NCBI RefSeq assembly: GCF_964275005.1
Contig: NC_092693.1
Location: 29,152,173 to 29,216,172 of the forward strand
Source: Diadema setosum
Lineage: Eukaryota > Echinodermata > Echinoidea > Diadematoida > Diadematidae
Direction: 5' to 3'
Length of the DNA: 64,000 bases
Shown here: one piece after another, positions 25,444 through 59,047 of the stretch
Numbering within the stretch: position 1 is the first letter of the stretch
Layout: each line of letters starts with the position of its first letter
The notes under the pieces: generated by a model
Databases searched by the model: none
The model's input: the letters and a program-made list of their open reading frames with translations, nothing else
Told to the model about the DNA's origin: nothing
Made by a program: the position numbers and the translations under genes

Positions 25444-25609
25444 GGGCCCAATTTCATTAAAAAAGTTGATATGATAGCAACTCTTGCTGGAATGACAATT
25501 GTCATAGTAACGACAAGAATCCAGCTTCCTGATTGGCTGTTGCTACTGGAAGTTGCCATCGTCCAGCAAAAGTTGCCATCCTATAATACCTTTTATGAAA
25601 TGAGGCCCC
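25444..25609. mobile_element. Foldback element (GGGCCC...GGCCCC)
   Basis: GGGCCCAATTTCATTAAAA pairs with TTTTATGAAATGAGGCCCC. Inner AAGTTG segments continue the inverted symmetry. Confidence 0.65.
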
Positions 25610-31171: not shown

Positions 31172-34100
31172 ATGTTCCTCTACTCCCTGACCCTGCAGCG
31201 AGCCACTGGCATCGTCCAGTGCATCCATGGCAACTTTGCTGGCTCCAAGCAGCAGGAGCTGGTGGTTGGGCGTGGCAAGCTCCTGGAGCTGGTCAAGCTG
31301 GACCCCAACACCGGCAAGCTCTACACAGTGCTCAGCCACGAGGTGTTTGGTGTCATCCGGGCACTCATGCCATTCAGGTTGACCGGAGGGAGCAAAGGTG
31401 ATTATTATACCAAAGAGTGCTCATGGTACAGTAAATTTCCTGTTATAACAAACACAGTTATAATGAAACTCTTGTTGCAGGAAGTTAGAATTCAGATCCC
31501 CAAATTATTATCTGTATTATCTTTGTATATATACTTTATTGTCCGGCTATTACAAAGTTTTAGTATAGCGAAAGAAGGCTGTCGGGCTGAGGACTTCTTA
31601 TAGCGGAAGTTGCCTGTAGTTTATTTTCGCTGTTGACTTTTTATGTGCTATTGCCACATGTGTGTAATGTTCCTGCCTTGTGTGTATGATTTTGGTACAA
31701 GAGTGACCATGGAGTTGAATTAGTGACTCATATTGGCAACTTGAGATGATGTGGCTACATTTGTTTAAGCACATGCTGTGTATCGAGGGCAAATGTTGTG
31801 TCATATAGTGTGCATTTTTTTTGCTGGATGTAATTAGATGTTGGAATCTGGAGTCCAGTGGAACGTACGGCAAGATGACAAAGTAGAATATGTATATTAT
31901 GCTGTGGATCATGACCACCTGAGGACCAGAAAGATGTTTTTGTTACACTGAATAATTTGTAGTTTACATCCCACTGTTTCACTGCTGTTTTGAAATGCAT
32001 TAGTAATGTATGCATACAGTAAAGCCATTATGTGAATTTCTAGTTGAGGTATGAATGCATGGTGTTACTGGTTTTCAATTTTACTGATGTGTCAAGAAAT
32101 AGGGTATGGTTGCAGATTTGCAAAGCATCGCCACAATCAAAACACAAGCCCAAGGTAGCAGTATTTATTGTCCGGAAATACTGAGAAAGAGGATGATATC
32201 TCCACAAAGTCAATTTAGATGAGATTGTTATTTCTGATGCTGATGGCCTCACTTTCCTTTCATTGTCCTTTGTCCTTATCTATACCTTTCAGACTACATT
32301 GTCGTTGGCTCAGATTCTGGTCGAATTATTATCCTGGAATATAACCCATCAAAGAATTGCTTTGATAGGGTAAGTATTTTATGATGATCACGTAAGGTAC
32401 ATCGATGACAGAAACACTTCACTGCAGGCCTGTCAGTAGCATGAAAATGAATAAAAAGTGATAATTTCATGGTGATTTTTTCACATGAAGGGCACTCTTA
32501 GCAAATATGTTTCCCAGCTTATTACAAAATTATGCTGGTAAGGTGTGTGATGATCTTTGTTGTTTTTAATGATCACATAAGATAAGTCCATGACAGAAAC
32601 ATTACTTTTAAGACTTCTTCATTCTTCAACAATAGTGTAAAGATTGATAACTAGTGGTAGTTTCACAATTAATTCTCAACATATAATGCCCTCTATTAGA
32701 AATAGGTTTGCTTAATGTTTTCCTAGCCTGTAACAACCTGATGTTTTCCTAGCCTATAACAACCTGATGTTTTCCTAGCCTATCACAACCTGATGTTTTC
32801 CTAGCCTATAACAACCTGATGTTTTCCTAGCCTATAACAACCTGATGTTTTCCTAGCCTATAACAACCTGATGTTTTCCTAGCCTATAACAACCTGATGT
32901 TTTCCTAGCCTATAACAACCTGATGTTTTCCTAGCCTATAACAACCTGATGTTTTCCTAGCCTATAACAACCTGATGTTTTCCTAGCCTATCACAACCTG
33001 ATGTTTTCCTAGCCTATAACAACCTGATGTTTTCCTAGCCTATAACAACCTGATGTTTTCCTAGCCTATCACAACCTGATGTTTTCCTAGCCTATAACAA
33101 CCTGATGTTTTCCTAGCCTATAACAACCTGATGTTTTCCTAGCCTATAACAACCTGATGTTTTCCTAGCCTATAACAACCTGATGTTTTCCTAGCCTATA
33201 ACAACCTGATGTTTTCCTAGCCTATAACAACCTGATGTTTTCCTAGCCTATCACAACCTGATGTTGATAAGATGTGTTAAAAACATGAGAAGAACAAAGA
33301 AAAGAAGAATATTAATAGGTAGACAAATACGTGTGCAGAAAAAGATTAGAAGGTACCATGATATGTTCAGTAGCATTTCTGCAGACTCAACCAACCAAAG
33401 ACCACTGACAAGAATAGTTGGTTTGTACAATTAAAATTCCCAGGAAATAATGTTAATGATCGCCCCGATACTGTACAGGCATGCTAACCTGGAAACATTG
33501 AACTGCACATTACTTGAATACGAGACCATTCTGAAGCAAATAATTTTCAAACAACAATAGATATATAATGTACTCTTAAATGAATCCCACAAGGATTGGA
33601 ACAATCATCCCCCCAGCATTCCCACTGATTCTCACTGATCAGTTACAAAGGTGTACTAGCCACCCCCTTTAAGTGTCTACACCGTGTCTTCTTCACTACC
33701 TTTAATAGATCCATCAGGAAACATTTGGTAAGAGCGGCTGCCGGCGCATTGTGCCGGGCCAGTTTCTGGCGGTGGACCCGAAGGGCCGTGCCGTCATGGT
33801 GGGGGCGCTTGAGAAGCAGAAGCTGGTCTACATCCTGAACCGAGACGCCCAGGCACGGTTGACCATCTCCTCGCCTCTCGAGGCCCACAAGTCCAACACA
33901 TTCTGCTTCCACATCGTCGGTGTGGATGTCGGCTTTGAGAATCCCATGTTTGCCTGTCTCGAGATCGACTATGAGGTACAAGACATTGTAGACCTTGCTT
34001 ATGAAACTTGTGTATTTTGAACCAGTAATTTAATACAAACTGAAACAAGAATGGGATTCAATTGATGTAGAATATAGGGATTAAACCTGTAGGTAATGAA

Positions 34101-37100
34101 ACTTCCATTGTGTAGGACTTTTACCATTGTTCAGCATGTTGATATGCTTTGTTATAACGTTTCAGCGTGATTATTGTATGTATTGATGCTTCCAAATTCT
34201 GTCATTGATAGGAACAATTCCCAACAGAATTCAGGTTGTATTGACTAGTCTACTTCAGTGACCATTGAAATAAGTTTGATGATTTGTTTTTCTAAATAAC
34301 TACAATTAAGTTTGAACCTTTTGTGTTCCCATGAGTTAGACAAGAATGTGATTAAACTAGTTCTGATTTATTGAGCTGAAGAAGATTATCTGGGGAGTAA
34401 AAAAGCAAGTACGTGTACATCAGCATTAGCAGAAATGCAGCATCTGTTGACCAGTGCCTGTATTTATGGAAGATACTTCTGAATTTCATCTTGTCAAGGA
34501 GGAGAGCCCATAAGCTATAAAGACTCTAATTCATGTGCATGTTTCTTCATGCCATAAAATCCTGCATGTTCCTATGAATTGCATTGGAGTATGGTTGAAT
34601 GTGATATTAGTTACTATGCCTTCTGTGAACATAGTCATGAATTTAATCATGACATTAATGGTCATGATTTTTTTTTTCCTGCCATGTTCCCCTTGTGTCC
34701 AGGATGCAGACAATGACCCCACAGGGGAGGCAGCCTTAGCAACCCAACAGCTCCTCACCTACTATGAACTAGACCTTGGTCTGAACCACGTCGTCAGAAA
34801 GTACAGTGAACCCTTGGAAGAGCATGGCAATCTTCTTATTGCAGGTAATCCCCTCATATTTTTTTTTTACTAGTGCTTGAGGTAGTGCATATGTCTGCTC
34901 TTAAGGTAGTGTTTGGTATGCACTTGAAATATGTTTGAATAGTGGTCTAGTTTCTTTCTCTTGAATGCAAAGTAATCCATGTCAGTTGGGAGTGAATATC
35001 GTTTTAAAGACCCAGTTGTGTGGGAAAGCATGGGTGTCTCTATTGAGCCAGTGTTCTTTTTTTACCCACCGAGGTACATTAGAAAACCATCGAGAGAGCC
35101 CGTCAGCCACATGCCAGCGAATATGTGCATTGATGCACATGCTTATCGGCAATAGTTGACTCCAGTCAATATATTTTACAATGTGCTTACTTACATAGAG
35201 ATCAGTTCTCAAATACATCAGAGCTGGGCCGACTTCCGCACTACCCGATATCCCTACGTGCTGGGTCTTTTATGTGGAAACACATACCCATTGTATGAGA
35301 TGATGATAACCTCATGCGTGTCATTTGAGTTCTGCTCAAAGTGTCTCTGCTCTGTGCTCATCTTGAGCGTTTTGCTCAAGGTTGCCAGACTGGGATGCTG
35401 CAGTTGGACATATGATACAACATGGCATCTGATTATTCAATAGTAGTTTCCACTCATACTGCATGAGAAAGCTAAGATATACCCTGCACGCATTAGCAAT
35501 AAGGAGAAGAGCTATCTATTTTCTTACATGCGAACAGTAAAATTAGTGTGTGGATTTCTGCCTTCTCATGGACTTAGTAAGTGAAGCAACTTTATTTTAT
35601 TTTATTTGTATTTTTATTTCATTTTTTTTTTTTTTGGGGGGGGGCGGTAACCCTCAGACCTACCGATGGTGTGTAAAACATTTTGTGTTAGTTTACTTGG
35701 TGCATTTCATGCCATAGCTCTTGTTATGTAAATCACAACCGTGACCATTGTGTCTTGTAAAGAAACCTGCAAATGTTATCCGAAATTCTTATGGCAAGGT
35801 AGACTGAAGTCTCGGCAAGAGAAGCTAATTTTTGGTATCATGTTTCAGTGCCTGGAGGCAGCGATGGGCCGAGTGGCGTCCTCATCTGCTCTGAGAATTA
35901 CATCACATACAAGAACCTGGGAGACCAGCCTGATATCAGGATGCCCATCCCAAGGAGAAGAGTAAGCATCGGATGTTTCAACGTATGAAATACCAATGTC
36001 ACTCAATGCGCTCTGTGCCACTGGGCTTCAGAGTAGCAGGCTGTGCGACATAGAAATTTTGATTGCTGGATGTGGTGCAGATATGATGTGCATTATGCTT
36101 CCGTGTTTCACCTGACTTCTTGTGATTATAACATCTTAGCATCCTGATCTGCTCTCTCTCCAGAAATCTTGTAGACAGTGGTAGCTTTCCCATCATGTAA
36201 TTGGGTAGATTTTCTTTTTTTATCTATTAGAATTGGTCAATGAAGATATTAGATTCATCTTCACTTCACCCCCCCCCCCCCCCCCCCGAAAAAGGTAGCA
36301 GTCATTGTCTTTTGCAACAGAGCAATAGATACTCATTTATAGTTACAATACCTTTCATCGTAGAATGCTTGGTTTGTTTGTTTTTTTTTTTTCTTTTTTT
36401 TAATGCATGCTATGTTTGAGTGATTTCAGAGAAATTCCAAAAATGTTACAGGGAAAATACTTCAATGCTGCTTCCTCGAATAAAAATTTTGCTCATCTAG
36501 TTTTTGAAATGTGCTAAGATTTTCATTTTAGATTATTATGATGTCATGCTTTCTTGTCCGTGCCCTACCAGATTACAGCTACTACAAGCAGTTTTTTTCT
36601 CTCTACTGCTTTGCTATGGGATGTTAAAAATGTCCTCCTGTGTCAAATCAAAGTCATCCTACATATTCATGCAGCTACAAGTAGCTTTCCTCTTCAATAT
36701 TTGTTCTAGAAATATACATTTTTGTTTTGTTCTGCATGCCTTGCGTAAGCAGTTTAGCAGTGACCTGATATCGTACTCTGATGTATTTTGCTTTGTTTGT
36801 TGATCAACATGCAAGCATATTTCATGAATGAAAAAAGTAGGATATGACTGTAGATACTACTCATACAAAAAAAAAAAAAAAAATGGAAAAATAAAGAAAT
36901 AAGAAGAATAGTGTTGTTCATAGGAAGTGTTACATATATTTTCATTGTGTCTCCATACCAGAATGATCTCGATGATCCTGAAAGGGGTATGATCTTCGTC
37001 TGCAGTGCAACACATAAAACAAAGGTGAGTAATGCCTTGTGGGAACCTTATAAAGAGTTAACAGAGTGATTGAGTTGCAGCATCGGGCATCATGTTACCT

Positions 37101-40100
37101 TATCACAATGGTAATGAATGTGTTTCAGTGCTGCAGAAATCAATAGATGCCAGTGGCGTGAATGCATTGCCTTTATCTCCTGGGCTTGCGTGTGTGCCAC
37201 AGGTACCAACATACCCCCTTGATATCACTTCTGAAATACCTAGGAGAATAAAGGGTAAACCAATCATGCCCCTTAAACATTTTACTTGTGAATATACTTT
37301 CTTTATGTGTAATAACTTCATCTCGTCTCCACTGCATTTTGCCGTAGTATCCACAGTAAGCAAAAGATTTCTTTTGAAGAGGGCATTACTTATACAAATT
37401 CACATATTGTCTAACTTTGTGCAGGTTTCAGAGCATTGATTTATGAAAGTTGTCAGCCCTGACAAGTTGTCAGTCTCTAACATTCACCATAGTAACAGTC
37501 AGAAACCAGAGCTTCTCAGCCAGTCATAACCAAAGATTTTACTAAAGTTGTCAGAGACTGACAACTTTTGAGGCTGACAACTTTCATGAAACTGTGACCA
37601 GGTTTTAATATTTTTTTATCACTGACATTGTCCCTTTGTTTTTACATAACTTATGGTAAACTTTATGTGGGGGGAAGAAAGATGTCAAATTGATGAAAAT
37701 AATTCAAATAATCCACTTGAGGGAGCTATTGTCAATCACTTGTTCAATTTTCGTAAAATAGTAGCATAAGTATTCCTGAAAGATATTAGGCAGTAGTCTC
37801 ATTTGGAGTAGTACCCACCACATGCTTTCTTTCTTGTCATCCCGCAGTCCATGTTCTTCTTCCTGACCCAAACGGAGCAAGGCGACATCTTCAAGATCAC
37901 GCTGGAGACAGATGATGACATGGTGACAGAGATCCGCATGAAATACTTTGATACAGTCCCCGTGGCCACGTCTATGAATGTGCTCAAGACAGGGTTCCTT
38001 TTCATTGCATCAGAATATGGCAATCAGTGAGTATATTCTGCCCTGTCAGCCACCAAAGGAAAAGGCTGTATTTTTGTAACTGGGTGTGTTTATGCATAGT
38101 AAAGCTATGGACCATCTCTCTTGCACTCAAACATTCAAAATTGCGTGCATTGTAAAGCTATGGACCATCTCTTTTGCACTCAAAACATTCAAAATTGAAT
38201 GCTTCTATCTCTTTTGCACTCAAAACATTCAAAATTGAATGCTTCTATTTCCTGGCTTCATAGGAGAAGCGTTGTAACAAATAAAAAGATGAAGCAGGAA
38301 TAAAATAGCATAGGCTTTGTCAACATTTTCCTGAGTGTTAGCAAGTCCTTGAAAAAAAAAAAAAGGAACCCTGAATTCTGACTTATCATATCGTGCTTCT
38401 GCTGTGGAGACAATACCTCTTGTTATGAATCCCATATGGCAATATGATGTGGTTATATTCAGGGTTTTGATTATGGACATACATGTAATAATATCGGATA
38501 AGACATTCTGTTGCCTATTATACACTTTAATATTGTTTTTCCCTGTTTGCTTGGAGACCAGTTTTTTTTCAGTTGTGATACAAAATCCACTTGATGTTTA
38601 TATTTTTTTTCTGATGTACTAATAGTGTGGCTCTTGCAGAATAGACCAGGTATTAAAAGTGAATAGTGCAAAGGGGTTGTGTGTTAAGGGAAACACTTTC
38701 TTCCTGTCGGAAATAGATGCTTGTCCATCTCTTGGTGATCAAAAACATCGAGGTTAATCCTTGTTGATGTTGTAATTGTGTTATCGTCAAAAATGTTTAA
38801 CTCTGTACCCTACTCTTTGCAACAAACCTCTGGTTTACAGCTACCTCTACCAGATAGCACACTTGGGAGATGATGACGATGAGCCAGAATTCAGCAGTGC
38901 CACACCCCTGGAGGAAGGGGACACATTCTTCTTTGCCCCCCGCCCCCTCAGGAATCTGGAGGAGGTGGACCAGCTGGAGAGTCTCTCGCCGATCCTCAAC
39001 TGCCAGGTACAACCCACTCATTGGTTGTAGTACCCTCGGTTCAGTGGATTCTTATCCTAAGAGTGTTTTTATAAAAGCTGTCAAGGCAGCTCTGTGTTGT
39101 CTTGAGTTGACACTTGTATTTATCTGTCTGGATGAAGTAAGATGCACATGGTCTTAAAATCATGTCCAGTGGCACAATGTTATTTGAAATCATTTCATTC
39201 AATTACCAACGGGAGATGCTGGCAGAGAATCAGAAGGATCAATCGTTAGTAAAGAATTCATGTTCCCAATGAGTACGGTCTCGCCATGCATTCATCACAA
39301 AATGTACATATTTACCTGTACCTGGCTCATATTGTTAGAGAAATGGTGAGGAGCCTTTAGGGGGAAGTTTCAATAAGTAATACCTTAAGGTTTACCTTTC
39401 AACAATGCTTCCGACAGATCATTTATTCTTTTAGAGATAAAACTGTGAGACATAGAGTTCAGTCTGGTCTCTGAAGGCTACTCTTCACTGCATTGCATAT
39501 TTTGGCTTCCTCAGAACGTTGTAAAAATCAAGCAGAGTTGTTAATCACCTCAAATGTTTAATTGATAGACCTGCAAACTCCTCTTTCACTAACTTTTGTG
39601 ACCGATAGCTTTTATTATCATTTGTGTGTGTGTTTTTATTCTTTTCTGTCCTACAGTAGTCGCTGATTAATTACAACAGTACATAGTTTTGTGAATGAAT
39701 GGTCTTGAAATCTCTAAAGAGGAATTTCAACAAAAAAAAAGAAAAAAGATGCAAAATAATTTGCCTGTCATCCTGGTGGAAATTTTTTGAGAAGTGTATT
39801 TCTGAATTTGTATCATTGGTCTTCTTAGAAATGGCTTTAGGACTTATTCTGTGTTGTTTTCACCGATGGTAGACTGTAGCATGACATTCTCCCGTACTTA
39901 CCATTACTTGCCTCTTTATCTCTGAACCAAATCTGTATCTTTCTGCACCAGATTGCCGACCTTGCTGGTGAGGACACGCCCCAGCTGTATGTAGCATGTG
40001 GCAGAGGTCCTCGGTCATCCATGAGGGTACTAAGGCATGGTTTGGAGGTAAGTAAGTGGCCAGTGACCATCATCTGATAGTTGAGAATTTACTCTAGCGT

Positions 40101-43100
40101 GCGTCATAGACCATACTTCACAAAATACGAGTACAGGGTCTACCATGTGTACATCCTGTGACTGTTGGCATGCTCTATGAGCTGTGGACTGACTTTACTA
40201 CATGATGTGACTTTAGTGTTTCAGGACATACAAGAGAGCTGTAAACTTTCTTGAATGGCAAACAGATTAAGGAAATTTAAAGTTACTTTCCCTCACCCCT
40301 CCACTACCATATAAACAAGTTATGGAAGCGTAACATATCACTAAGATACAAGATACCTACAAGATTGAAAATTTGTCTTTTCTTTCGGTGTAATATGCAA
40401 ACATCCACTTCAGTAAGATTTTTAGATGCCAAATACAGTATGATTCATATATTAGGCACTAAGTCTGCCATTACCAGCAATGGCTTGTATAGCACATGAT
40501 ATCAATGGAATATTTAGATGGTGGTTGTTTGATGGTTAAAAGTTACTGCCATACTTCACTTTGGCATTGCAGCATCGGGCATCATGTTACCTTGTCACTG
40601 TGGTAATGTATGTGTTTCAGTGCTGCAGAAATCAAACTGGTATGCAGGGAGCAATCGCTTGCTTTTATGACTGAGCTTGCTGTTCACTGCCTACCAACAC
40701 ACCCATCTTAAGGGGATAGGGCAGCATGTTAATACATTCTTAGTTTCTTACTTATGCAATGTACTTACATTTTGGCTGAAAGTATTAAGTGTGAATTTGT
40801 GATTACGTAAAGAAATTAAGAGTGTCTATGTTCTCACTGCAGGTCTCAGAAATGGCCGTCTCTGAGCTGCCCGGTAGCCCAAACGCTGTCTGGACTGTAA
40901 AGAAGAAAGCAGATGGTGAGTAGAGTTGCGCAATCCTGATCAAGAAAGCTGCTTTAAGTTCCTTTTTGGAAGGCCACATTTGAAGGCCCAATAATATCAG
41001 CATTTTCATGACTTCAGTACTTCTTTGTCCAAATTACCTCAAAAAAAAAAAAGAAAAAAAAGAAAAGGGAAATGAATGTGTGTTAACCCTTTGTGTACTG
41101 GACTTTGAACAGTGTGTACAATGCTCTGGGTCTTTTCGTGCCAATCAACACGCAAAGCACACAAATGGTTAATCTGCTGTCTTTACAAGACCTTTTTCAC
41201 TTGAAGCAATCTCCTATTTTTGTTGAATTTACTTCAAATTAACCCTATTCTAATTGGGGGGAGGGTCAAATTGACCTCCCCCCCCCCCCACTCGATGTTT
41301 CGCGCCACGATTCCGCAACGCGCAAAGATTTTGCCACGTCGTTTCATGACCTTTTTCATTGAAGTCTCCCGCATATTTTGAGACTAAATTTGCGATGTCC
41401 GGGTACACCGTTCTGAAGTTATGCAATGTTTTGCATATGCATGTCGCCCCGAAAACCACTCGAATTCATGATTTCGTGTGCAAATCCAATGCAAACTGTG
41501 TTTTTTTGTTTAATTGATCTAAATCAGATTATTTTAACTTTTAACCATTGAAATAAATCAATTCTAATGTAGATAGGCTTGAAAAAGTGCCTCCAACAAA
41601 TTTTGGCAAAAAAACAATAGAAAACAAAAGATCAAAAAAAAATACATCAGAAATTAACAAAACAATAAAAAACAAAAGAAAATGATTTTGATTGTGCTAT
41701 TTTTTTACAAGAAAATTGTTTGATGTGTCTTGAGGAACTCTGACACAAAAATTTAATAATCCTTCAGTCTTTTTGATGGAGTTGAAGGTGAAAATATAAA
41801 TTGACCCCCCCCCCCCCCCCCCCCCCCCGTAAAAACTTGGTCTCAAATAGCCCAGTTAGAATAGGGTTAAGTTCTATACCCTTGACTCCTCATATCTTCA
41901 TATTGTGTATTTCAGATGAATTTGATGCTTATATCATTGTGTCCTTCGTCAACGCCACCCTGGTTCTGTCCATCGGTGAGACTGTGGAGGAAGTGACAGA
42001 TTCTGGTTTCCTGGGAACCACGCCCACTTTGTCGTCCTCTCTCATTGGCGACGATGCTCTCCTACAGGTGAGACGGAAGAAATAACTTACTGTAAGACCA
42101 GAAACAGTTGGGACATGAAACTTTCGCAAATTGGGGCTGATGACCGTTTTTTTTTTTTTTTTTCATGGCATGAAACGTTCACAAATTGCCTCTGGCATTC
42201 AATGCATTGTGTTGACAAAAAAAACTTTCACATGCATTTTACTTTGGAGAATCTTGCCTCATGGACACGAAAAGTCTTGGTTTTACGGTAACTCACAATG
42301 AATATGTTTATTTTTGTGTGTTTTATTTGTTATTCTTTATTGTCAGATGAGGTATGTATGTGCACTGTACTAAGCTAAGATCACTTGGCATCATACAGTG
42401 CATATATCAATGTCAGAAGCAAACTGTCCTTGTAGTTCCCCCTGTAGCTTGTAATTTGCACATCTTGTTGATAGGGTGGCTGGAGGTAGCAGCCCTGTTT
42501 TGCAAGTCTCCGTATCCAGTTCCACCCAATCACATATGAAGATAAATTTTAGAAGCTATTTGATTCCCATGTGTCCAATTTGACATCAAACTAAATGTTT
42601 AAAGTAGCAGCTGTATGGAATTCCATTAGTACTTGACTTTCTGTTAGTATTTGAATGAGGCAAGTGTATTAGATCTTGAAGTTACAGCATCAAAAATTCT
42701 ACAATGAGTGATGTTTGAACGTTTATATGTATGCCATATTAGTCACCTTTGTAAGTCATATTTTTCCCAAGTTTGTTCATGATCCTCTCTCAGTGTTTCT
42801 GCATGAGGCCACCTACCTTAAATGTTCAAGAAATGATTGTCACATATTTCCCCCATCCCTTGTCAATGTGTGCCCCCCCCCCCCCCCCCCCCAAGCTGGA
42901 TGTGATGAATGCATGTATACTCGCGCTTCGACTGAAGTGAATTAACTGTGTTGTGAAATCGCATGCACATTTCTGATCCACATAGCTACCTATGAGTGTA
43001 GAACACTGGCACTGATAGAACAAGCTTATCCAACTGCACAACCTCACTGTGCTTACTGCATGTCATATTTGAAATAGGACAGTCTAAGTTCCCCAGTCTC

Positions 43101-46100
43101 CCACTAGTTTTGAAAGTTGTGAGTTTGAATAAAGTTGGTAGTGTCACTGCATGGTAAGCAGTAGGTTCCAAGATAGAATCCCTGGCTAGTTCCTTCTTTG
43201 TCATGTAGTCCATTATAAAATGGATTGAACAAGTTAACTTAAATAAGGAGAGCTACAACATGACCATCTATTCGTAAGTCATCATTTTTTGCCTATTTCT
43301 CCTCCTCTAAATTGTGGGTCAGATCTACCCTGATGGTATCCGCCACATTCGGGCCGACAAGCGTGTGAATGAGTGGAAGACACCGGGCAAGAAGTCCATC
43401 GTCAAGTGTGCGGTCAACCAGAGACAGGTGGTCATTGCCCTGACCGGTGGAGAGCTGGTCTACTTCGAGATGGATCCAGTGAGTGGACACTTTCATTGAA
43501 TCTGTAGATATGAAAACATTAAATGAGTGGACACTTTCATTGAATCTGTAGATATGAAGACATTATTTGAAATATTTGCATTAGCTGACATGGCTGATAA
43601 ACACCAGTTTGAAGCACAGACTTTACACTCTTGTACACGAATAAACCTGAACAAATTGAAATCATCACCCTGAAATGTAAATGAAACTGTTCATTTCAAC
43701 ATAGTACTGAAGAAGATTTTTTTTTTTTTTTTTTTGCATAATCATCAATCAGTGTTCATATAGTACACTAAGAATATTTAATAGTTGATTTCTCTAAGTA
43801 AATGGCTGTGTGTTTTCTTTCTACACAGACTGGTCAACTAAATGAGTACACTGAAAGGAAGGAGATGAATGCTGATGTAAAGTGCATGAGTTTGGCCAGT
43901 GTGCCCTCTGGGGAGCAGAGAGCCAGGTTCCTGGCTGTGGGTCTGGATGACAACACCGTCCGCATCATCTCCCTGGACCAGTCAGTAAGTCTGCTTCTTG
44001 TATGCCATCTGTCCTCGGCAGAGGTGATGCTGTGTCTTCAGGCATTTCCCTCCAAAATATTGGTTCTCGTTTCCTGACATCACAATAGCACGTATCCAGA
44101 CACATTTTCTGTGACCTACTTCTAGTGCTAAAGGCCTTCCCTCAATGTTGATGTTTAGTTTTGTTTTTTAATTAGTTTGTATAACGATTCTCGGTATCTA
44201 CCCATGTCATGTGACCAAACTAGTGAGCTTGTAATAGCCCTGTGGCTCTTTAAGACTCGCCTTGGTAATAAAACACAGCAGACAAATGGGTATTTCTTCA
44301 TGTGTTCTGTGCATGTAATGTGTATAGCAAGGATGCTTATCATTATCTGTCAATCCACCGAATGATATTGTGTGGATAACTACATTGATACCTGAGCTAT
44401 GCACAGTATGATACTCTAATGGTTTATTGGGAGAATCCAATAGTACCCAGAGCGACTATACTTTATTGATGGGCGAGTGACATATGTTGACACTGGTTTG
44501 AATTGGCAAGCTTTATCTGTAATGGATTCATTGCTCAGTGTTCATCTGAAAGAAAAAGAAAAAAATATGCAGAAATGTAACTCAACTAAACTACATTTGA
44601 GCATCCATGTATCAACTGGTGCAAGAACTGCGTACAAGTATCAGCTAGATATAAGAATATACATACACCCACAAATTACCATAATATCTCTTTTTTTTTT
44701 CCTTTTTTTTTCAGCCAGATGATTTCAAATACAGCATGAGCATGCCATAGCCACTTGTCTAATCAAATATAAGTAAGATAGTTGTTTTGGCACTTTGGAT
44801 ATATGAATATGAAATCCATTGCTTCAACTTGAGTTTATGGGTATGGAACAAATATGAAACATGTATTCGGAATACAGAATACACTGTTTATGCAGCCCAG
44901 TGTTACAAAGTATTTACTCTTATTGTAATATTGTAGAAATTTGGTGTATAATAAGAACATACTATGTGATTATAATTCGTAGAGATCTATCACTCTTTTT
45001 GATTTGGTGACATATTTCCATCCGATGTTATATAATATGATATGATACATGCTATCCTTGTCATCTTGTGACAGGATTGTTTGCAGCCCCTGAGTATGCA
45101 AGCCTTGCCGGCCCCTGCTGAAGCCCTGTGCATCATTGAGATGGGTGGGGCTGAGGCTAGGGAGGATACGGGAGAGAGGGGAAGCTCTGGGGGACTCTTC
45201 CTCAACATCGGTCTACAGGTCAGTGGAATGGAAAATCTTGCTTCCGAGAAGTGAAGCTATTTTAGTATCCCTGGCGATTTTCCATGCATATATATGTATG
45301 TAAAGATGTGGTAAATGCACCTCAGAATTAAAGTCCCTGTGAGCATCTATGAAGTTAGTAGAACCTGTCCCATTTTCAGTTTTAGTATGAGAGAAGTCTA
45401 TGTCTCTTCAGCAAAGAAATATCAGCCAAATTTCAGGGCATCCTTGCCAGCAGGGCATCCTTGCCACCCATTGTGGATTGAGCGTCTGCTGGAAAACTCT
45501 CTGTTTGTCCAGTTGAGGAATTGAGCTCAAGATCTGTTATAATCTTAGCCTGATGGCTGTAACATTTCCACCATTAACAAATATTGATCAGTCTTTGAAG
45601 TTTGGACTTTCTTTCTTAAAAATACTGAAAGAAATATGAATGCATATATACAGCACTTTCACTTTGCTTATGATGAATCCATTTGATCTCTTTCTCATGG
45701 AATTGTGAAGTACAGTCTTGTTTTACAGATAGTCTAAAGTATGAATGGTGCTAAGTCAGTCGTCTTGATAACCTCAGATAAAGCTGTATTGAAAGAATAG
45801 TTTGTTTTGTGTGCATTCGTTATGGTGTTGCCAAGTGTTTGGTTAATGTTTCGTCTTGTTTGCATGCAGTTTACTGCAGTAGTAGGCATGAAAATCTGTG
45901 TATTGCAGTGGAAAATGATGTTTGTACCCATGCGTTTTGTGGTTATATCCTCACATAGTTTTGTTATACTGTCAAGGGTTTATAGTCTGCACCTTAGACA
46001 CATGAGCTCCAATGTAGCTTCTTTCCAAAAAAAAGTCTAATGATGATAAAATCTTAGTGCATTACCAAGAGTGTGTTACAATTTACAGTCACATTACAGC

Positions 46101-49100
46101 TCTTGTCTTTTGATGTAGATATTTCAGCTTTCATGTAAATCCCCTCCCTCCGCCCCACCAAAAAACGAAAAGAAATATAACTAACCCAGATGTGATGAAT
46201 GCATGTATACTCGCGCTTCGACTGACGGTTTGTAACCAGTGTTGAAACAAGGCATGCACTGTTCTGATCTGAGATTGCCTATGTGTTGTGGCATTTCTTG
46301 ATGTGATTAACAAGTTTGGATTAACAAGTAGATGCAAACCACAACATTGATATATTCATGTTTCTGTGGTGACACATCTTTTTGTCATAAGCACTGCTCA
46401 TGTATTATCTTATTGTCTTTTCCTTCCTTCACTTTCTACATATCATTTTTTTTTGCGTGTGTGTGTCTCTTTCTGTGTGTCTGTGTGTGTGTATTGTGCT
46501 GCTTGTCAATCATTTCTCCTCCATATCTCCATTTCTCCTTTCTTTCCTCCTCTTCCCTCTCACATCCTGTTCTCTCAATCCTCTCTTCAATCTCAATGCT
46601 ATCTCAATCTCCTATCATCATCCAACTCTTCCCCCCCCCCCCCCCCCCACACACACTGCTGCCCGGCATGACTAACTCCAGAATGGTGTGTTGCTGAGGA
46701 TGGTCCTAGACTCGGTGACCGGTGACCTCTCGGACACCAGGACGAGATACCTAGGATCAAGGCCGGTGAAGCTCTTTAGGATCAACATGCAGGGATCAGA
46801 GGCTGTGAGTGACCGACGCAAATTTGAAAACTTTCTCTTTCCATTGCCCAAGATATTAATCTACAACAAGAGTGTAAAATCTGAACCACCTGGCTGTAGT
46901 TCTTGAATATAGTGATCCATTGCAATCTTATTTTATGCTAACTCAGAAGTGCACCTACCCTTTAGTTTGATGAGTTACAATAACATATTTCTCTAGTGAA
47001 GAAATTATATGTGCGTATGTATGCACGTAAATCACTCATTCTTTTTGCCAGCAACATAAGCTGTAATGATGGTGCTACTTTGTAATGTTTTTAGCACAGC
47101 AGACACACTGTACGTGCAATTAGTGTTTCACATCAGTTGGGAAAGGAGGCTCAATCACCTATACACTGACTTTCAAAATTCTTCTCTGACGTCCTGGAGG
47201 ATAACGATTCATATCTCTTTTAAAGCATTTAATTAAGCTGGATGTACATTTGCTACAGTTTTTGCAAATTGATCTTTTTTTTTCATAAACAGGGCACCTG
47301 TAAGAGATCCTCATATCTCAAAAAGCTTTGGCAATCAAAATTGTTAACTCTACCTAGTTTAAAGGGACTGTACAGTACTGGTTGAGGTAGGGATTCATGT
47401 TTTGAACATTCCTAAGTGAGATAATGAAATGCCTCTTATGAAATATCAAAGGGCATGTAATTTTAAGAAGGATTCAACGTTCATTTGATGAAAATTGGTT
47501 TTCAAATGGCTGAGATATCGAAAAAAGTACCAATAATAAAAGGCGACATGCCCCAACTTTATTAGTATCTCTTTGTTTCACCTTGTTTTTGGATATCTCA
47601 GCCATTTCAAAACCGATTTTCATCAAATAAACTTTTGATACCCCTTAGAGTTGCATGCTCTTTTACAACTCATAGAGTGGTTTCTGAATATCTCACAAAA
47701 CGTTGAAAGCTAAATCTTCACCTTGACCAGAACTGTACACACCCTTTAAAGAGTACAAATATTGGTGTTTAGCAGTGATGTATATCATTATCTGTCAATC
47801 CACCGAAGTCATTTGTGTGGATATTTTCACCTGATACCTGAGCTATGCACCAGAATAATGCATATATGACTCTTTGTACCATATTACACAAAGTTTTATT
47901 GTCACAAAAAATCACTGGAAGGGCAATTTTTGTTAGCACACAGACTGGCGCTCTTTTGCATGAACTTCTTTGACACCAAGTCATCTGAATATGATGCAAA
48001 GAGGAACCGAGATGTAGGAGCAATATTTGCGAGGCACTAGCACTATAGTTCATGTTCAAGCACAGATTTCATACCTGTCATTATTTCATGTTGATGTTTT
48101 CTTTACTGTGTGTATTTTCCTTTTGTTTCATCCCCCAAATCCAGGTCCTGGCCATGTCGAGTCGATCATGGCTCAGCTACTGGTACCAGTCCCGCTTCCA
48201 CCTGACTCCGCTCTCCTACGAGACGCTGGAGTTTGCTTCAGGCTTTGCCTCGGAGCAGTGTCCAGAGGGTATTGTGGCCATCTCCACCAACTACCTCAGG
48301 TGAGGATCGGGGCTTTCTCTCTTTCTCTTTTCTCTGGTAGCTAGCTCTACCACATGGCACCTGATGTTGTTTCAGGGATTGCGACCTTAGAGAGTAGGCA
48401 CTGCCCTGGTGGTCTCAAGGTTGCTGGTTCAAACCTCTGCCAACTTGCTCTTGGGGGTGTGTATGTGCATTTTTCCTCAGAATGGGTGAAGACCGAGTCT
48501 TATGAAATATGCCCAATCACAGTGTGAATAGCAGGAGATCTACATAAAATTCTCTCGTGGTAATGGAAGTGATGTACACGCTTTGTTTCCTAGTGATTAC
48601 TGAAATACTCTTTTAACCCTAAAAAGACTGGGGGGGGGCCTAAAAGGCCCCCCCCCCCTCGACATTTCGCGCGATTACTCAGCAACACGCAATGCTCTCG
48701 CCGCGATGCTCTGTGACTTTTTTCTTTCGAGTTTCCCGCACATTTTGACACCAAATTTGTGATGCCCGGGGGTACGGTTCTGAAGTTACATAACATTTTG
48801 TACATGCACGTGAGACCGAAAATGGCTCAAAAATGCGATTTTGTGTACAAAGTCAATACAAATTGAGTTTTATCATATGGTTCATATAAATATGCTTATT
48901 TTTACTCTCAATGGCTAAAATCAATTTGTTTTAGTAGTATTATGCTTCAAAAAGGGTCTGCCACAAATTTTGCTAAAAAAAACAACAAAAACAAAAGGTC
49001 GAAAAAACAAAGAAATACATAAGAAATTCATAAAACAATAAAATAAATTAGGAATTAATTTTGATACCAAATTTTTTTCAAGTACATTTGCTAAGAATGC

Positions 49101-52100
49101 TACAAAGAATATCTAGACCAAAAATGAGCACTTTTGGAGCTTTATTTACTGATTTAGATAAAAAAGTCTGATTTCTTGCATAAATTAGCATAATTAATCA
49201 AAATAAAGTAAAAGAAGACTATTTTGGAAAATTTAAATATACGATCTTGTAGATTACATCGCACACTACCATTGTGCAAATTTCCGCGGCGATAGCGCGA
49301 TCCATGGCCGAGATCTTAATGGGGGGCCCTTTAGGCCCCCCCCCCCCCCCCCCAGTCTTTCGAGCTACCAAAATAGCCCAGTCTTTTTAGGGTTAAGTTT
49401 TAAACTGAAGAACACAAAAAACCCTTGTAATATTTTAGATAATATGATACAGGAGATGAAATGTATTATCATTGTAGTTGTCAATGTCAGGAGAAGTAAT
49501 GACAGTAGTATTAGCATAGTAGTATCATCATCAACATCAATGTCATTGTATTACTATCAGGTGGGGAAGTGCTGTTAAAGTGATTTTTGTTTTTTAGTGA
49601 TTATTACTATTCATTTTTCTTACAAATGGATTTGCCAGTTTTAGTGAAACTCACTTGTGGTTTTAATCATGCAGACAAGGGTATTTCTGCACATCTTTGA
49701 ATATCTGTAAAAAAAAAAAATATATACTTGTTGACAGTATGTGCTCTTTGTAGTTTCAATTTGAGCAATGATACAAATGTATTCCTTTGTTTAGGATTTT
49801 GGCTCTGGAGAAACTGGGTGCAGTTTTCAATCAAGTATCTACACAGCTGAAATATACGCCAAGAAAGTTTGCCATTAATCTGGAAAATAGCAATGTCATC
49901 GTCGTGGAAACTGACCACAACGCCTACACAGATGCAACGAAGGCACAGCGAAAACAGCAGATGGCTGAGGTACAAAAATGTCAAATAAATATTTTACACA
50001 TTAATTTTTATTCAGATGTTGTGTGTCAAATTCTGTGCATGATAGAAGTGATAATTGTCATATAGTTACTTGAAACAGTTTGCACGAATCTGCTGGGTAC
50101 AGCATAATATGTCTAGTTTTTACCTGTGCTGGAGGACATTCTTAATGATTTTATCGGCAAAATGAGCCTATGTCTTACTGTTTTTAAAGCTGGTGCTCTC
50201 TTGTGCACCTTGGAAAGTATATAGTCTTGTCGGGCGTGCATCTGTCCCTTCATATGAAGAGACCGAATTGAAATTGGTCAATGATGCTATAAACAAGCAT
50301 ATGTCTGAATTCATTTGAATGTCATACATGGATCCTGAGACCACAATGAAATACATGCCCTCACAGGAATGGTTGTTGTGCAATAATTAGTATGCTAATG
50401 CATTTTCTATGTCTCTCAGTACATACCTTTTGAAACTTAAGTTACACATTGTCACAAAAAAATATATGAGCCTTTTCTCTCTTTGAACAATGTATCATTG
50501 AGACCTCATGAATTTGTAGGTCCTCCTTTGTCAATTTATTTTGGGCATATGCTATATATGTCATATGTGTTGTGAGCATAAAATTTAAAACATGGGGACT
50601 TTGGAAACAGTTTTGTGAGTGGCTTACATTCACAATTGAGGGCGGCAACAATGGAATGGTAAAATTTAGCTGAATGAGCTCTCGATAGATGTCAGAGTTA
50701 AAGGGATGGTACAGTATTGGTGGAGATGAGAATTGGGCTTTTAATTTTTTGCGAGATACCAAGAAAACACTTATGATATAGTACAGAGCATACCATTTTA
50801 AGAGAAATTCAAAGTTTATTTGATGAAAATCGGGTTTGGAATGACTGAAACATCCAATAACAAAGTAAAACAAAGCAATCGTAATAAAGTGTGGGTCGCA
50901 CACTTTATTAGAATGGCTCTTTTTTGGATATCTCAGCCATTTCAAAACCAATTTTCATCAAATAAACATTGAATTCCTCATAGAATTACATGCTCTTTCA
51001 TATTTCATAAGAGGTTTCTCGTTATCTCCCCAAAAATATTAGAAACCCGAAATTAGGTCTCAGCCAAAACTGTACGATCCTTTTAAGCTATTTTGCATAT
51101 GAAAAACTCCAAAAGGGAGAAGAAAAAAAACACACACCAAAACAACAGCAACCAAACAACCAAATATTGAGATGCGATTGTCAACTATATCGTCGCCGGT
51201 CACACGAACCGACGAATCCCTCAGGTTTGCGTAAGAATGACAATTCGAGAAAATCGCGTTTGAAGTTAACCCATTTTTGACTTATGGTTGCTACGCTTTC
51301 ATGTCTATAATTTCCAATTATTTTTGTAGTACATCAGACTTCAATTCTTGCTCTAATTTGTGAAGTTTTATCGAATTGTATTGTTAACAAATAAGCGGGA
51401 AATTGTCAAAGAGCTGCATGCATGTATTTTCGGTCTGCAAAGAACATTGTCATTTTCCATGTGTGTCCATATGTACATGTACATTGAGCGTTGTCATTGT
51501 CAACACATGTATTACATAGTACGCGCACTGTGCGTGCGGTCAATGAACTGTTGAATCTCAAAAATTACACACAAGTCAATGCGCACTGATTCGTCGGTTC
51601 AGTGACCGCGCGTACTAGTACGCGCGGTCACCGAACCGTCGAATCGCCCGATTGTTTAACACACGCGTCTATGGGGAAAACAAATAATTTTCACAAATGG
51701 AATTACATACTTCTACAAAAGTGATAACTACGTAAAAATTACGCCGAATTACACACTGAGAATTTCAGAATATGTAGTATGGAATATCTACTATCGAAAT
51801 GATTGAAAATCTCAAAATCGAAAATTTGACCAAAAATCGAGTGATTTGTCGGTTCGTGTGACCGGCGACGATATCAGCAGTTTATTAGCTAACATTACTC
51901 GTCTAAATATTCTATCATATTCATTGTATTTCATATGATCACGTGGGAGGAGATGCAGGTTTGCGATTTTGGTGTTGTTTATAGTGTGTTTAGGTCTAGT
52001 TAACCCTCAGTGTGTTTAGGTCTAGTTAACCCTCAGACATTATTTCCTCTCCCAATGTCAGGAAATGGTTGAGGCAGCAGGGGAGGAGGAGAAGGAGCTT

Positions 52101-55100
52101 GCAGCCGAGATGGCAGAGGCCTTTCTCCACGAGGAGCTCCCAGAGTCTACCTTCAGCTCCCCCAAGGCGGGAGCCGGCATGTGGGCCTCCAACATCCGGG
52201 TCCTGAACCCCGTGCAGGGCCAGACTCTGGACCTGGTGGAGCTGGAGCAGAACGAGGCGGCGTACAGGTGAGGCCCACGGCTTAGGGAGAGAGCCAGCTT
52301 CTCTTGCCTGGAGGGATTTTATGCTTGATGGCGTCTTGATGCAAAGGGAACGCCACTCTATACTCAAGTCTGACTTTAAATGAAGCCAGATAGACAGTGA
52401 AGTTTCATCGAAATCAGACAAGTTTGCAGAATTTCAGAGTTTCACCTGTTTCCATTGAGTTATGATCAGTCACAATCACCTATATATTTAGACAAGGCAA
52501 TGATTTTATGTCCTTACAGCTCTTCCATAGGTTTGTACTTAAATTTGTTATTCAAGTCTGTTAAAGGTGTTAGTTCCAAAGTATTTCTGATAAATCTGAG
52601 CCCCTTCATCATGATAAAAAATAATTTGAAGGAAGTGATACATCTCTTTGAATTAGTTTCACAAAGGGTATGAAGTGGAGACTTAAATGGTAACATGTAT
52701 ATCAAATTTTTAAAGGTAGGGAATCCCATTTGCATGCCTTAAATGAAGAGTTGTGTAAACACAGTGGTATGTTGAAGAGAGTATCATTTTAGAAACTCCC
52801 ATAAAGTATTGAAAGTGGAAGGTGACATATAGAACATTTTTATTGACCGTTAGATTTTGAATTTAATTTTTTTCGGGGCTCACCGTAAATTCCAGTTCAT
52901 TACTAGGCTACCTTTGCAGACCCATGCACTGCATGTGTGTCCATCATGTATATTTTGTGAATAAAGTTCATCAAAACTTACAAACATTTCTATATACATT
53001 CGTGCCACACACTCTATATGTTATTACATCAGCTCTTATACTTTTAGATTTGTGTTTATAGATTAAAAATACAGAAGACTGCAACAAAAAGGCTTAAGTG
53101 TGGCTGACACACAGAACTACTGAGTAGTTGAGTTTTGTGCATTATTCAAATTGTAGATAACTGTTGACTTCCAAATTTCTAAGCAGTGGCCTAAACAAGT
53201 CCCCTGAGGTTCATATTTAATGTTTTGCTGCATTTTGGGAGTTCTGTAAAAGGTATCCCCTACCTTTAATAGTGCATTTTTTTTACCAGTCCAAATCTTG
53301 CATTCATGCACAAAATTTTGTATCTTCTTCCGTAAGAGCTTTGTGCATATTTCTAATTTTGTTAGGAGCATACCATAAAGGCAAGCAAAGAATACACCAG
53401 ACTGACCAACCATTGATTTGATATGATATGATCTGTTGAAAATAAATCCAACAATCGGTATATTAATCATTGCAAATTGTACATGAAGACATGATCAACA
53501 ATGTTTCATGAAGAAGGTCTTAACTGGTAAACAGAGGTCATCACAACCTTCCAATTGTATCGGTAGTTCCAATTCCTCTCTCTCTTTATATCATCTGTCT
53601 ACCAGCCTGGCAGTGGTAAAGTTTGCCAACAGAGAAGGGGAGACACACGTCCTGGTTGGCACGGCTAAAGATGTCACCCTCAGCCCAAGGACGTGTTCCG
53701 GGGGATCCATACACACGTACCTTGTCAAAGAGGAAGGTGCCAAACTGGAGCTACTGCACAAGGTTTGTTTTGTCTGTCTGTCTGTCTGTTTTAATTTATG
53801 TATCAAATAATACATTTCAACAAAGAGTACAAGTGTGAAGTGTATGCACTTCTTGAACGAAACATGACAGATTGTGTTCATGTGTTACAGTTGTTTGGTC
53901 TTGAGGTCCCTTCAATTTTATATGTGTCGTAGGAATCTATCTCATTTAAATAAAGATATTGTGTTGATGATGTGTTTGTTCTGCTGAGAAAGCTCTGAAA
54001 TGAGCTACACCTCATTCCCTTCAACAATGCTTTGTAGTCAAATGTAACAAATGACCACATGTCAAGTAGTACAGGCTTTTACTTGGGTGGACTTGATGCA
54101 ATTCTTGGAAGTGCCATAGAATGACACATACTTAACACATTACTAGCTGAACAGGGACTGTTTACTGTGTATTGAGATGCTAGTTTTACTGTGTGCTTTG
54201 ATCCACTGTCATAGATATATTGTTATGTGGCAAACAAAACTTTTGATTGTCCCATTTATTCAAATCTATGTTTGCTGCAGACACCTGTAGATGATGTCCC
54301 TTCAGCAATATGTCCATTCCAAGGGAAAGTACTCATCGGCATCGGCAGGCTTCTTAGAGTGTACGACCTCGGCAAGAAGAAACTTCTCCGGAAGTGTGAA
54401 AACAAGGTGAGCGTTGACGTCCGACCATGTAATGCTGCTGTTCCGTCCCACAAGAGAGGCTCGTCCATTGCTCCCTCTGAATGACAGCTGGATGTGATGA
54501 ATGCATGTATACTCGCGCTTCGACTGAAGTGAATTAACCGTGTTGTGAAATCGCATGCAAAGATCTGATCCATCAAGTCAGCATTCAGATTGTACTCACT
54601 AATAGACCATCTGACTTCCCTTTAACAAATCTCCCCTCCCCATTAAAAAAAAAAAAAAAATAAATATACAAGGGCAAAGAAATGCACCCATTACAGTCTT
54701 GTACCCATATCAATGCAGTGTAGTACTAATCCCAAGCTGTTAGCTGTTGAAATATGCTTTTCCTCACCCAAAAGTGTGTTCATGCTTTTGTGCACAAAAT
54801 GTTAAAATATCTCCATAATGGTTGACAGTGTCATATTGCAGGTTGTGAAAGCATGTTCTGCAATTGTTCACTAGCTTGATGATATCTGCTGATGCTTGTT
54901 GTAATATAATATTTCGTCACTGTCACTAAGAGGTTGGTATGTTCAGACAGAGCGCACTTTCCGTAACAGGACAAGCATGTCCCCTAGAAATAGTAATGCA
55001 CATAGTGTTCTGGCTGAGTGTTATAAAATATTTGTCTCTACTTATCATGAAAACTAAGCACAGTGTGCAGTAAATGCAGAGGATATGCATGAATAATTAG

Positions 55101-58100
55101 ATATCTGTGAAAATTTGTGCGACATTTTTTTCTCTTTTCAGGCAGTTGGTGGTTACTGATCTAAATGAAACCAAAGACGGTGTGTGTTACATTCCGACAT
55201 TTTGTATTTCGTTGGTTTTTAATATTTTGTTTGTTCTGCTGCTCTTGTACATGTAACCTTTTTCCTCACAATTCTTCTTGTTTTGTATGTCCCCCAGCAC
55301 ATTCCAAACTTCATTACCAACATCCTGTCATCTGGCAACCGCATCGTGATCAGCGATGTCCAGGAGAGCCTCCACTTCCTCAAGTACAAGCGGCCCGAGA
55401 ACCAGATGGTCATCTTTGCGGACGACTCCAACCCCCGCTGGATAACGGCCACCTGCATGCTGGACCACGACACCATCATGTGTGCAGACAAGTTTGGCAG
55501 TGTCTCGGTGGTGAGTAGGCTCCAGTCTGTATGAAATTTGAAATATTTTTCAAGGATGGCAAACATTCAGTGAGCAGTTGTCGTGTTGTAATACATTTTC
55601 TACCCGAGTGACTGGCTAAAACACGGTCAGACTTAGAATCTTCTTTGCTGCCTCATGATTGTTTTGTTCGTATGCTTCTGCCGTGGGGAGCATAGTATTC
55701 TTTACTTATTTACTTAATTTTGAGTTTGTAGTAGCATTGAATGCCGACGAGATTATGTAAGATTACTGCCATCACCAGCCTTGGTGAATGTATGTCAACT
55801 GTGCAATATTTTCAATCCTTTGTACATTCGATGATAATGCCTTTGATTTCAGCTTATTTTGCTTCCTGAGATGGTAGTCATGTGTCAGCACTGCCTTAGT
55901 GATCATGTATACTTCTATCAGTTCATTCTGCCAAGAGGACCTCTGCTGCTTAGACTCTTAACCTACTTTTTATAGAGCTTTAGTGAACACACATTCCTCA
56001 CAAGTATAGTATCCCACTCTTTTGCCCACTAGTGGCTACTAAGGATAAAATAACGAGAATGATATTCATTCATTTAGATCCTTAATACAATGCTCTAGCT
56101 CAAGTTGGTTCCTCAGAACCCTGCATGTAGGTAACATCAGATGGAATGTTAGGTAACCTGATCAAAGGGGGAAAAGGAGGTTATATTGCTTTATCAGGCA
56201 AATATTGTAGTATTGATGAAATGACATTTTGTGTTAGTTGCTATACTGAATAGGTAATGGTATTCTGCATTGTTTCTCTGGGTGCCCCTTCTCTAGCTGC
56301 GTCTGCCCACGAGTGTCAATGACAATGTTGACGAGGATCCGACAGGCGTGAAGGCCCTTTGGGACCGAGGCCTGCTGAATGGGGCCTCCCAGAAGACGGA
56401 CGTCATTTCCAGCTTCTTTATAGGAGAGACGGTTCTCTCCCTGCAGAAGGCCACCCTGATCCCTGGAGGCTCCGAGTCGGTGGTCTACACCACGCTGTCT
56501 GGGGCTATCGGTGTTCTGGTGCCCTTCACCTCACATGAGGTATGAACCTGTGGTCATTTCATTTCATTTCATTTTCATACCATTCATCTGCAGAAACATT
56601 CAAAGGCGCACGGCTCCCACAATGTGGCACACATCATTCACAAAGTTGCTGTAATTCGGCAGGCTTTTTTCATAGGTGCTAGCTTCATCTTGCCCCAAAC
56701 TTAAATGAAGTGAAAGTTGAGATAGCGGGCTCAGATCAAATTCATCGACCATCAGAGATCCAGTGCATTTGTACCGAGTAATGATGGAAGCAAGCCAGCT
56801 AATTCAATGTGCCGACTGGCCAACAAAGTAGAGGAAGTGTTGACCCATAAAGTACCGCCCTCCCCACTCCAGAATTTCTGCAGCTGCCTTTGACTTCTTG
56901 CATTACTTCTTCTTTTTTTTTTGTCTGAAGACACCTGCACATGGCATCTTGTCCAGATGTTCAAATAGAGTAAGCGATCAGTCGGTCATGGTGTACTTGT
57001 TATGTGTTAGTTTATGTGTTTTCCCATCCGTGACTCAGTGCTTATTCTCAAAATTAGTAACATTTACAGTTATTGTTTACATGGATTTGGTATTATTTCA
57101 CTACAGGACCATGACTTCTTTCAGCACCTGGAGATGCACATGAGGTCAGAATTCCCTCCTCTCTGCGGTAGAGACCACCTGTCGTACCGCTCCTACTACT
57201 ACCCCGTGAAGGTGAGATGCTCTCCTGTAATAACTGATCTTCCATGAGATACTTTCACACACTAGCCCCTTAGATCATGTACCTGTTTACTGTAGATGTG
57301 GAGAGGGTCATTGTGAATTGATCTCCTTACAATCCAATCATTTCTAGGTTCTGTACAACTTGTAAGGATTGAGAATGTGTGTTTTATATTTCGTATGCAT
57401 CTTATTCAGAGTTGGGGGGGGGGGGATGTTCCCCTCTCTTTATCAAAAGAAATTTGAACATACCAAAGAAGTTTGAATGCAATAATGGATATAGTGTTGC
57501 TGAACTTGGAGTAAAATTTATGAAGAAAATATCCCCCTCGAAGTAATTGTCATGTGCTGTGTGTATTCAAATACAATGAGGATTTGTGTGTCATTTTCTA
57601 CTACATCCCACACAGAATGTGATTGATGGTGACCTGTGTGAGCAGTACAACTCAATGGACCTTTCCAAGCAGAGAAGTGTGGCCGAGGAGCTGGATAGGA
57701 ATCCTAGTGAGGTAAGAGTTCACTGGGTGGTATGAATGCATAGTTGTTGGGTTCAGAGGAGCCAAAGAAAGCCTAGCTCTATTTTGCAGAAAACCCCATT
57801 CACTTTGGTTAAATGATCACAGAGAAATGTGGATTGTTGTAAAGCATGTCATGAGTCTGATTCTTCCAAGTTTAGCACTTGGATGCTCTTGTGTGTGAAC
57901 ACAATAGACAGAACTTCAAGGGAAGAGATTCCTGACATGATGCACCACGCGCTACCCCGGGGTATCGTAGTAACCCGGGGTACCACGTTGTGTAGCGCCA
58001 TCTCACGTTCACTCGAGTACAACCGCAGAGTTGCGTATGCGCACTGTACTGACCCGTGGTACGGTGCGATACTCAGTACTCAGTATAGCGCTTCATGCAC

Positions 58101-59016: not shown

Positions 59017-59047
<31 letters not shown>

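Follow-up and report, generated by a model that had tools for sequence, protein, structure and literature searches.

Does the gene for a core component of the spliceosome also serve, in a sea urchin, as a source of guides for RNA modification? The question is raised by a 64,000-nucleotide (nt) stretch of the Diadema setosum genome (contig NC_092693.1 of assembly GCF_964275005.1, positions 29,152,173 to 29,216,172 of the forward strand; hereafter, the window), which contains the gene for SF3B3, a component of the U2 small nuclear ribonucleoprotein (snRNP). An earlier note, made from the DNA letters, had proposed that the introns of this gene harbor nine small nucleolar RNAs (snoRNAs), seven of the box C/D class and two of the box H/ACA class. 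Our analysis indicates that Diadema SF3B3 is very probably a multi-snoRNA host gene, and the proposed arrangement, with one snoRNA per intron in the sense orientation, is right on the sequence evidence.

The coding region of SF3B3 comprises 25 coding exons, which were placed by eye and then joined with a splice-site script admitting only GT-AG introns, and encodes 1217 amino acids with 0 internal stops. The protein matches human SF3B3 over the full length (2305 bits) and is 100% identical to the splicing factor 3B subunit 3-like protein of Diadema antillarum and 94% identical to those of other named sea urchins. Introns are numbered here according to the scheme of the earlier note, that is, as the coding-exon count plus one, because a putative non-coding 5′ exon was counted there.

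The SF3B3 introns contain ten snoRNA candidates, eight C/D and two H/ACA, one per intron and all sense. The nine originally placed in introns 6, 7, 10, 12, 14, 15, 16, 18 and 21 on the plus strand are all present, as judged by the Rfam search, repeat analysis and a dedicated scan. Thus, the one-per-intron, sense arrangement holds but the count of nine does not: SNORD10 in intron 5, which begins 781 bases before the interval delineated in the earlier note, had been overlooked, bringing the SF3B3 total to ten. The ends of the C/D RNAs in introns 6, 12, 14, 15, 16 and 21 were set by hand. The features are as follows.

31172..60199, plus strand: SF3B3 host gene, 25 coding exons (splice model; human and D. 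antillarum protein matches)
35295..35436, plus strand: SNORD10, box C/D, intron 5 (Rfam RF01290, 40.3 bits, gathering cut-off 37)
36078..36152, plus strand: box C/D, intron 6, predicted 28S Am1310 guide, SNORD126-like (11 bp guide, weak Rfam match)
37076..37213, plus strand: box H/ACA candidate, intron 7 (two hairpins, hinge AAATCA, ACA)
40568..40704, plus strand: box H/ACA candidate, intron 10, paralogue of the intron 7 copy (fold, copy)
42897..42981, plus strand: box C/D, intron 12, copy 1 of the predicted 28S Am3764-site guide (boxes, guide, copies)
44321..44404, plus strand: box C/D, intron 14, SNORD110-like, predicted 18S Um1288 guide (Rfam, guide, stem)
46187..46272, plus strand: box C/D, intron 15, copy 2 of the predicted 28S Am3764-site guide (identity to copies, stem compensation)
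47766..47850, plus strand: box C/D, intron 16, SNORD110-like, predicted 18S Um1288 guide (Rfam, 12 bp guide)
50276..50342, plus strand: box C/D, intron 18, SNORD27-like, predicted 18S Am27 guide (Rfam, 12 bp guide with 1 G-U)
54489..54573, plus strand: box C/D, intron 21, copy 3 of the predicted 28S Am3764-site guide (95% identical to the intron 12 copy)

At gathering cut-offs, SNORD10 (C box at 35300, D′ box TTGA at 35325, D box ending at 35432) is the only Rfam match in the whole window. A loose search (E up to 5, region 28000-60000) yielded 15 matches, among which four further ones, all sense to SF3B3, coincide with the candidates: SNORD27 (RF00086) at 50276-50342 (40.3 bits, E 7e-4; under the gathering cut-off of 52), SNORD110 (RF00610) at 44325-44399 (28.1 bits, E 0.078) and again at 47770-47845 (26.5 bits, E 0.22; both under the cut-off of 64), and SNORD126 (RF01168) at 36072-36145 (22.6 bits, E 2.3; under the cut-off of 55). 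For SNORD27, with the predicted site 18S A27, and for both SNORD110 matches, guide and site agree with those of the family; for SNORD126, the predicted site agrees. The triplicated C/D RNA matches no Rfam family at E up to 5, SNORD15 (U15) included, and its likeness to the latter lies in the predicted site only. Other matches from the loose search were set aside as repeats or chance: MIR7996, BTnc060, MIR8706 and MIR169_8, which fall on inverted repeats at about 47.4-47.6 and 50.8-51.0 kb; SCARNA7, whose match at 59 kb is a GT repeat; the bacterial families Rothia-sucC and STnc390; and snoZ165, snoR116 and SNORD60, which are weak and correspond to no row in the guide scans.

What would these RNAs guide? 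The targets were human ribosomal RNA (rRNA) and small nuclear RNA sequences standing in for those of the urchin, with an incomplete 28S, and sites are given in the old human numbering. In seven of the eight C/D RNAs, a guide of at least 10 bp lies upstream of D or D′ such that its fifth position falls on a site known to be methylated. These +5 positions pair with 18S A27, 18S U1288 and, in 28S, the second A in each of TGAAACACGG and TGAAGCGCGG, which we take to be the Am1310 and Am3764 sites. The intron 6 RNA (D′ CTGA at 36112) presents an 11 bp guide to 28S TGAAACACGGA; the intron 12 RNA (C box at 42902, D′ at 42932, D box ending at 42976), a guide of 13 bp including 2 G-U; and the intron 14 RNA, at 44330, a 12 bp guide and a 9 bp terminal stem, with a poor C box, AGGATGC. 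Presumably, SNORD27 guides 18S A27, HBII-55 is equivalent to SNORD110, and chicken 18S U1246 corresponds to human U1288. In favor of these assignments, known guides are linked in print to the predicted sites: a table of PMC9941101 lists SNORD126 with Am1323 (Am1310 in the old numbering), a passage of PMC8393311 pairs SNORD15 with 28S Am3764, and a chicken table ties U15 to snR13 at 28S A3274 and HBII-55 to 18S U1246 (PMC2653536). In SNORD10, the guide CAUGCGUGUCAU is kept in the Rfam alignment and pairs, by eye, with ATGACACGCA of the human U6 sequence. We take U6 Cm77 to be the known target of this family, and U6 is most likely the target of the Diadema RNA as well.

Own rRNA of the urchin was recovered neither by a 5.8S family search nor by a 28S pattern search of the assembly, and the viral contigs gave no match in the search for it. 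A 162-nt 28S query detected two degraded 48-base pieces, L009 and L010 (1501-1548 in both), on two other contigs; both start at AGAGAGTCATAG or nearly so (reverse strand) and are possibly remains of ribosomal DNA (rDNA) or of elements carrying 28S sequence. In reverse, the L009 piece reads CAACGAAGCGC where the human 28S reads CAATGAAGCGC, so that the triplicated guide would gain one more G-C pair; this is only a hint because the L010 piece disagrees.

The C/D candidates stand out clearly from the chance level once guides are taken into account under strict cut-offs. The scan covered the entire window on both strands and required a C box, a D box, a terminal stem and, upstream of D or D′, a guide with the fifth position paired. 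Under strict cut-offs, chosen after the loose scan had been seen (C-box penalty ≤0.5, terminal stem ≥4, guide score ≥11, length up to ~140), there are 7 hits on the plus strand, all in SF3B3 introns, and 0 on the minus strand, against a mean of 0.13 per strand and a maximum of 2 in 300 Markov sequences. Seven of the eight C/D candidates pass these cut-offs; the one at 44330 fails because of its poor C box, and its intron 16 paralogue passes. In the remaining SF3B3 introns, the strict scan detected no additional guide RNA and the loose scan a single row, at 44027 in intron 14, which we do not believe; the plus-strand loose rows at 25600 and 43330, the latter inside an exon, were likewise not accepted as snoRNA candidates. 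The loose guide scan as a whole gave 19 rows on the plus strand, with overlapping versions counted apart, and 8 on the minus strand (Markov mean 7.1 per strand, 12 sequences). Boxes and stem without guides separate signal from noise poorly: in the region 28000-61000, there are 8 hits on the plus strand, 4 of which are reported candidates, and 2 on the minus strand, with a Markov mean of 3.25 (20 sequences).

Three of the families occur in more than one intron. The repeat analysis recovered the SNORD110 pair, the two H/ACA copies (37075 and 40567) and all three copies of the triplicated C/D RNA (42894, 46189 and 54486). From the C region to D′, these three copies show 0/37 differences in every pairing. 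From D′ to D, the intron 15 copy is separated from the other two by 15/38 and 16/38 differences (Fisher p 1e-5 and 4e-6, respectively), whereas the copies of introns 12 and 21 show 4/37 (p 0.11); the flanks differ at 9-17 positions over 19-20 columns. The terminal stem TGGAT/ATCCA has become CAGAT/ATCTG in the intron 15 copy, a change of two compensatory pairs. The SNORD110 pair follows the same pattern, with 0/25 differences over the guide and D′ and 10/29 from D′ to D. In the H/ACA pair, differences amount to 4/69 in the 5′ hairpin and hinge, 33/61 in the 3′ hairpin and 1/12 in the ACA tail. Given that similarity declines near the ends of the RNAs, it is possible that the RNA unit alone was copied, for example, by retroposition.

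Searches of the 912.7 Mb assembly covered five of the six families, the intron 6 RNA lying outside that set. The triplicated RNA (query, intron 12 copy) has 3 matches, all of them the SF3B3 copies; SNORD110 (query, intron 16 copy) has 2, in introns 16 and 14; the H/ACA RNA (query, intron 10 copy) has 2, the second of which spans 68 of 137 bases and is the intron 7 copy; and SNORD27 and SNORD10 have 1 each, in SF3B3 itself. Thus, all nine matches are SF3B3 copies, with none outside the gene, although these counts are lower bounds on repeats, and unrelated guides to the same sites may exist elsewhere. The earlier proposal that the multicopy families (3 + 2 + 2 copies) were copied within SF3B3 agrees with these results.

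Several observations weigh against the multi-snoRNA host interpretation or parts of it. In the family search, suggested as a check in the earlier note, SNORD10 exceeds its gathering cut-off; of the other seven C/D RNAs, four fall under the cut-off and three have no Rfam match, although the sub-threshold SNORD27 and SNORD110 matches count in favor of the interpretation. The rRNA targets are human sequences, the species' own rDNA being limited to the two degraded 48-base pieces. The best SNORD10 target found by the script is not U6 but a 28S cytidine (13 bp including two G-U) that, to our knowledge, is not known to be methylated. The covariation in the terminal stem of the triplicated RNA was equalled in 53/500 shuffles, a control that is weak because only three sequences exist. 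All eight C/D RNAs lie farther from the 3′ splice site (294-1719 nt upstream) than the ~70-80 nt preferred by mammalian intronic C/D RNAs. Finally, when the H/ACA pockets were compared, under a crude pocket model, with an incomplete target set, no target scored better than shuffled guides: for the six pocket settings, the best scores were matched by 60, 58, 27, 30, 22 and 58 of 60 shuffled guides. For the H/ACA guides, target matches are, thus, not supported.

This last result bears on the first alternative, namely, that the two H/ACA candidates guide modification of RNAs other than rRNA or represent a duplicated hairpin element with another role, which we regard as possible though on balance unlikely. 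Apart from the pocket scores, it is favored by the fact that neither candidate matches an Rfam H/ACA family in the gathering search of the window or in the loose search. The anatomy, however, is that of H/ACA RNAs: both have two hairpins, the hinge AAATCA, which fits the consensus ANANNA, and an ACA near the 3′ end within ACCAACAYACC; the hinge and the ACA tail are kept between the copies; and the folds are more stable than those of most shuffled sequences (z -2.23 with 4/200 shuffles equally low for intron 7, and z -2.67 with 2/200 for intron 10). Moreover, the incompleteness of the target set and the crudeness of the pocket model limit the force of the negative result. We therefore keep both as H/ACA candidates by anatomy.

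A second alternative is that part of the set consists of decayed snoRNA pseudogenes, with one working copy per family and the rest silent. The poor C box of the intron 14 SNORD110 copy and the strong divergence of the H/ACA 3′ hairpins are what such decay would leave behind. Nevertheless, the guide and D′ box are intact in all C/D copies of both families, the altered terminal stem of the intron 15 copy is restored by compensatory pairs, and both H/ACA copies still form two hairpins, so that we consider this scenario rather doubtful. That the short boxes were matched merely by chance, given the length of the introns, is highly improbable: the boxes-and-stem signal and the eight antisense rows of the loose scan show how easily such matches arise (4 of the 8 sense boxes-and-stem hits are not candidates), but the strict scan already disfavored this reading, and the repeated copies with identical guides and the SNORD10 match over the gathering cut-off speak against it.

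Under the multi-snoRNA host interpretation, each spliced intron would be debranched and then trimmed to the snoRNA protected by its boxes. The eight C/D RNAs would guide fibrillarin for 2′-O-methylation of 18S A27 and U1288 and 28S A1310 and A3764, with SNORD10 most likely directed at U6, and the H/ACA pair would direct the pseudouridylation of its target RNAs. The three multicopy families would have multiplied by intron-to-intron copying in SF3B3, with boxes and guide kept while other parts drifted. We infer that the ten RNAs are expressed, processed, bound in ribonucleoproteins and active in modification, and the further claim of the earlier note, that the cluster might tie rRNA modification to how much SF3B3 is transcribed, is plausible.

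How does this arrangement relate to known hosts? The guides of SNORD10, SNORD27, SNORD110 and SNORD126 and their predicted sites are the same as in the respective Rfam families, with only SNORD10 over the gathering cut-off here. In vertebrates, SNORD10, SNORD27 and SNORD126 reside in hosts other than SF3B3. HBII-55 is hosted by NOL5A in chicken, according to a table of PMC2653536. The triplicated RNA shares its predicted target adenosine, 28S Am3764, with SNORD15 (U15)/snR13 but, at ~85 nt and with a D′ guide, differs from chicken U15 in RPS3, listed with 158 and a 3′ guide, along with, for this site, one of 90 whose guide is 5′ (PMC2653536).

Human SF3B3, as stated in the earlier note, is indeed a host: SNORD111A and B lie in different introns, as stated in PMC6124571, and a chicken SNORD111B counterpart is placed in SF3B3 introns 3 and 6 in PMC2653536. 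The vertebrate gene thus resembles that of Diadema as the same host with C/D guides in different introns, but the cited passages give it fewer guides and one guide site, 28S Gm3923, in two introns. The Diadema guides fit sites other than that of SNORD111, also as previously noted, and no guide to the human 28S stretch around Gm3923 passed the loose or strict scans of the window. The same host is used in Drosophila, where Sf3b3 (CG13900) carries many intronic snoRNAs of mixed C/D and H/ACA classes. Passages of PMC12309372 treat SF3B3 as a recurrent snoRNA host, report six C/D and three H/ACA RNAs in the fly gene, the most among the species considered there, and likewise infer duplications inside the set; nine snoRNAs in CG13900 are given in PMC4901365, and PMC9074282 also names snoRNAs located in its introns. 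Thus, the multi-snoRNA SF3B3 is already in print, and Diadema is, with good support, a further case of a known arrangement. Among the matches listed in our literature search, we found no report of urchin SF3B3 snoRNAs in titles or the openings of abstracts, with most subscription journals outside the coverage.

The urchin gene adds an echinoderm to the flies and vertebrates with SF3B3 snoRNAs, carrying a cargo that differs from the vertebrate one and whose predicted sites can be named. The case is relevant to the question of whether snoRNAs move freely among broadly expressed hosts, as proposed in the constrained-drift model of PMC3511168, which argues for continuing mobility between such hosts, or settle repeatedly in particular ones. 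As a tentative conjecture, to which we attach little confidence, SF3B3 might be a lasting bilaterian snoRNA hub, with guides exchanged between lineages; in Diadema, it might be the sole guide source for several rRNA sites that are conserved and probably for one site in U6, in which case the amount of methylation on rRNA and U6 would be determined by how a U2 snRNP gene is transcribed and spliced. At a practical level, the analysis provides a concrete non-coding RNA annotation for an urchin gene.

The SF3B3 introns contain several other elements. Intron 25 includes a sense open frame (58245-58487; 80 amino acids with an ATG) that has no Pfam match. Copies of a 300-nt repeat adjoining poly-C runs, 69% alike, are located in introns 11 (41281-41580) and 17 (48648-48947), and copies of an inverted-repeat element resembling miniature inverted-repeat transposable elements, with pieces 72% and 85% alike, in introns 16 (47418-47674) and 18 (50753-51009). 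Finally, intron 3 carries a 26-nt minisatellite (32585-33369) with a constant spacing of 26 and nearly identical core units.

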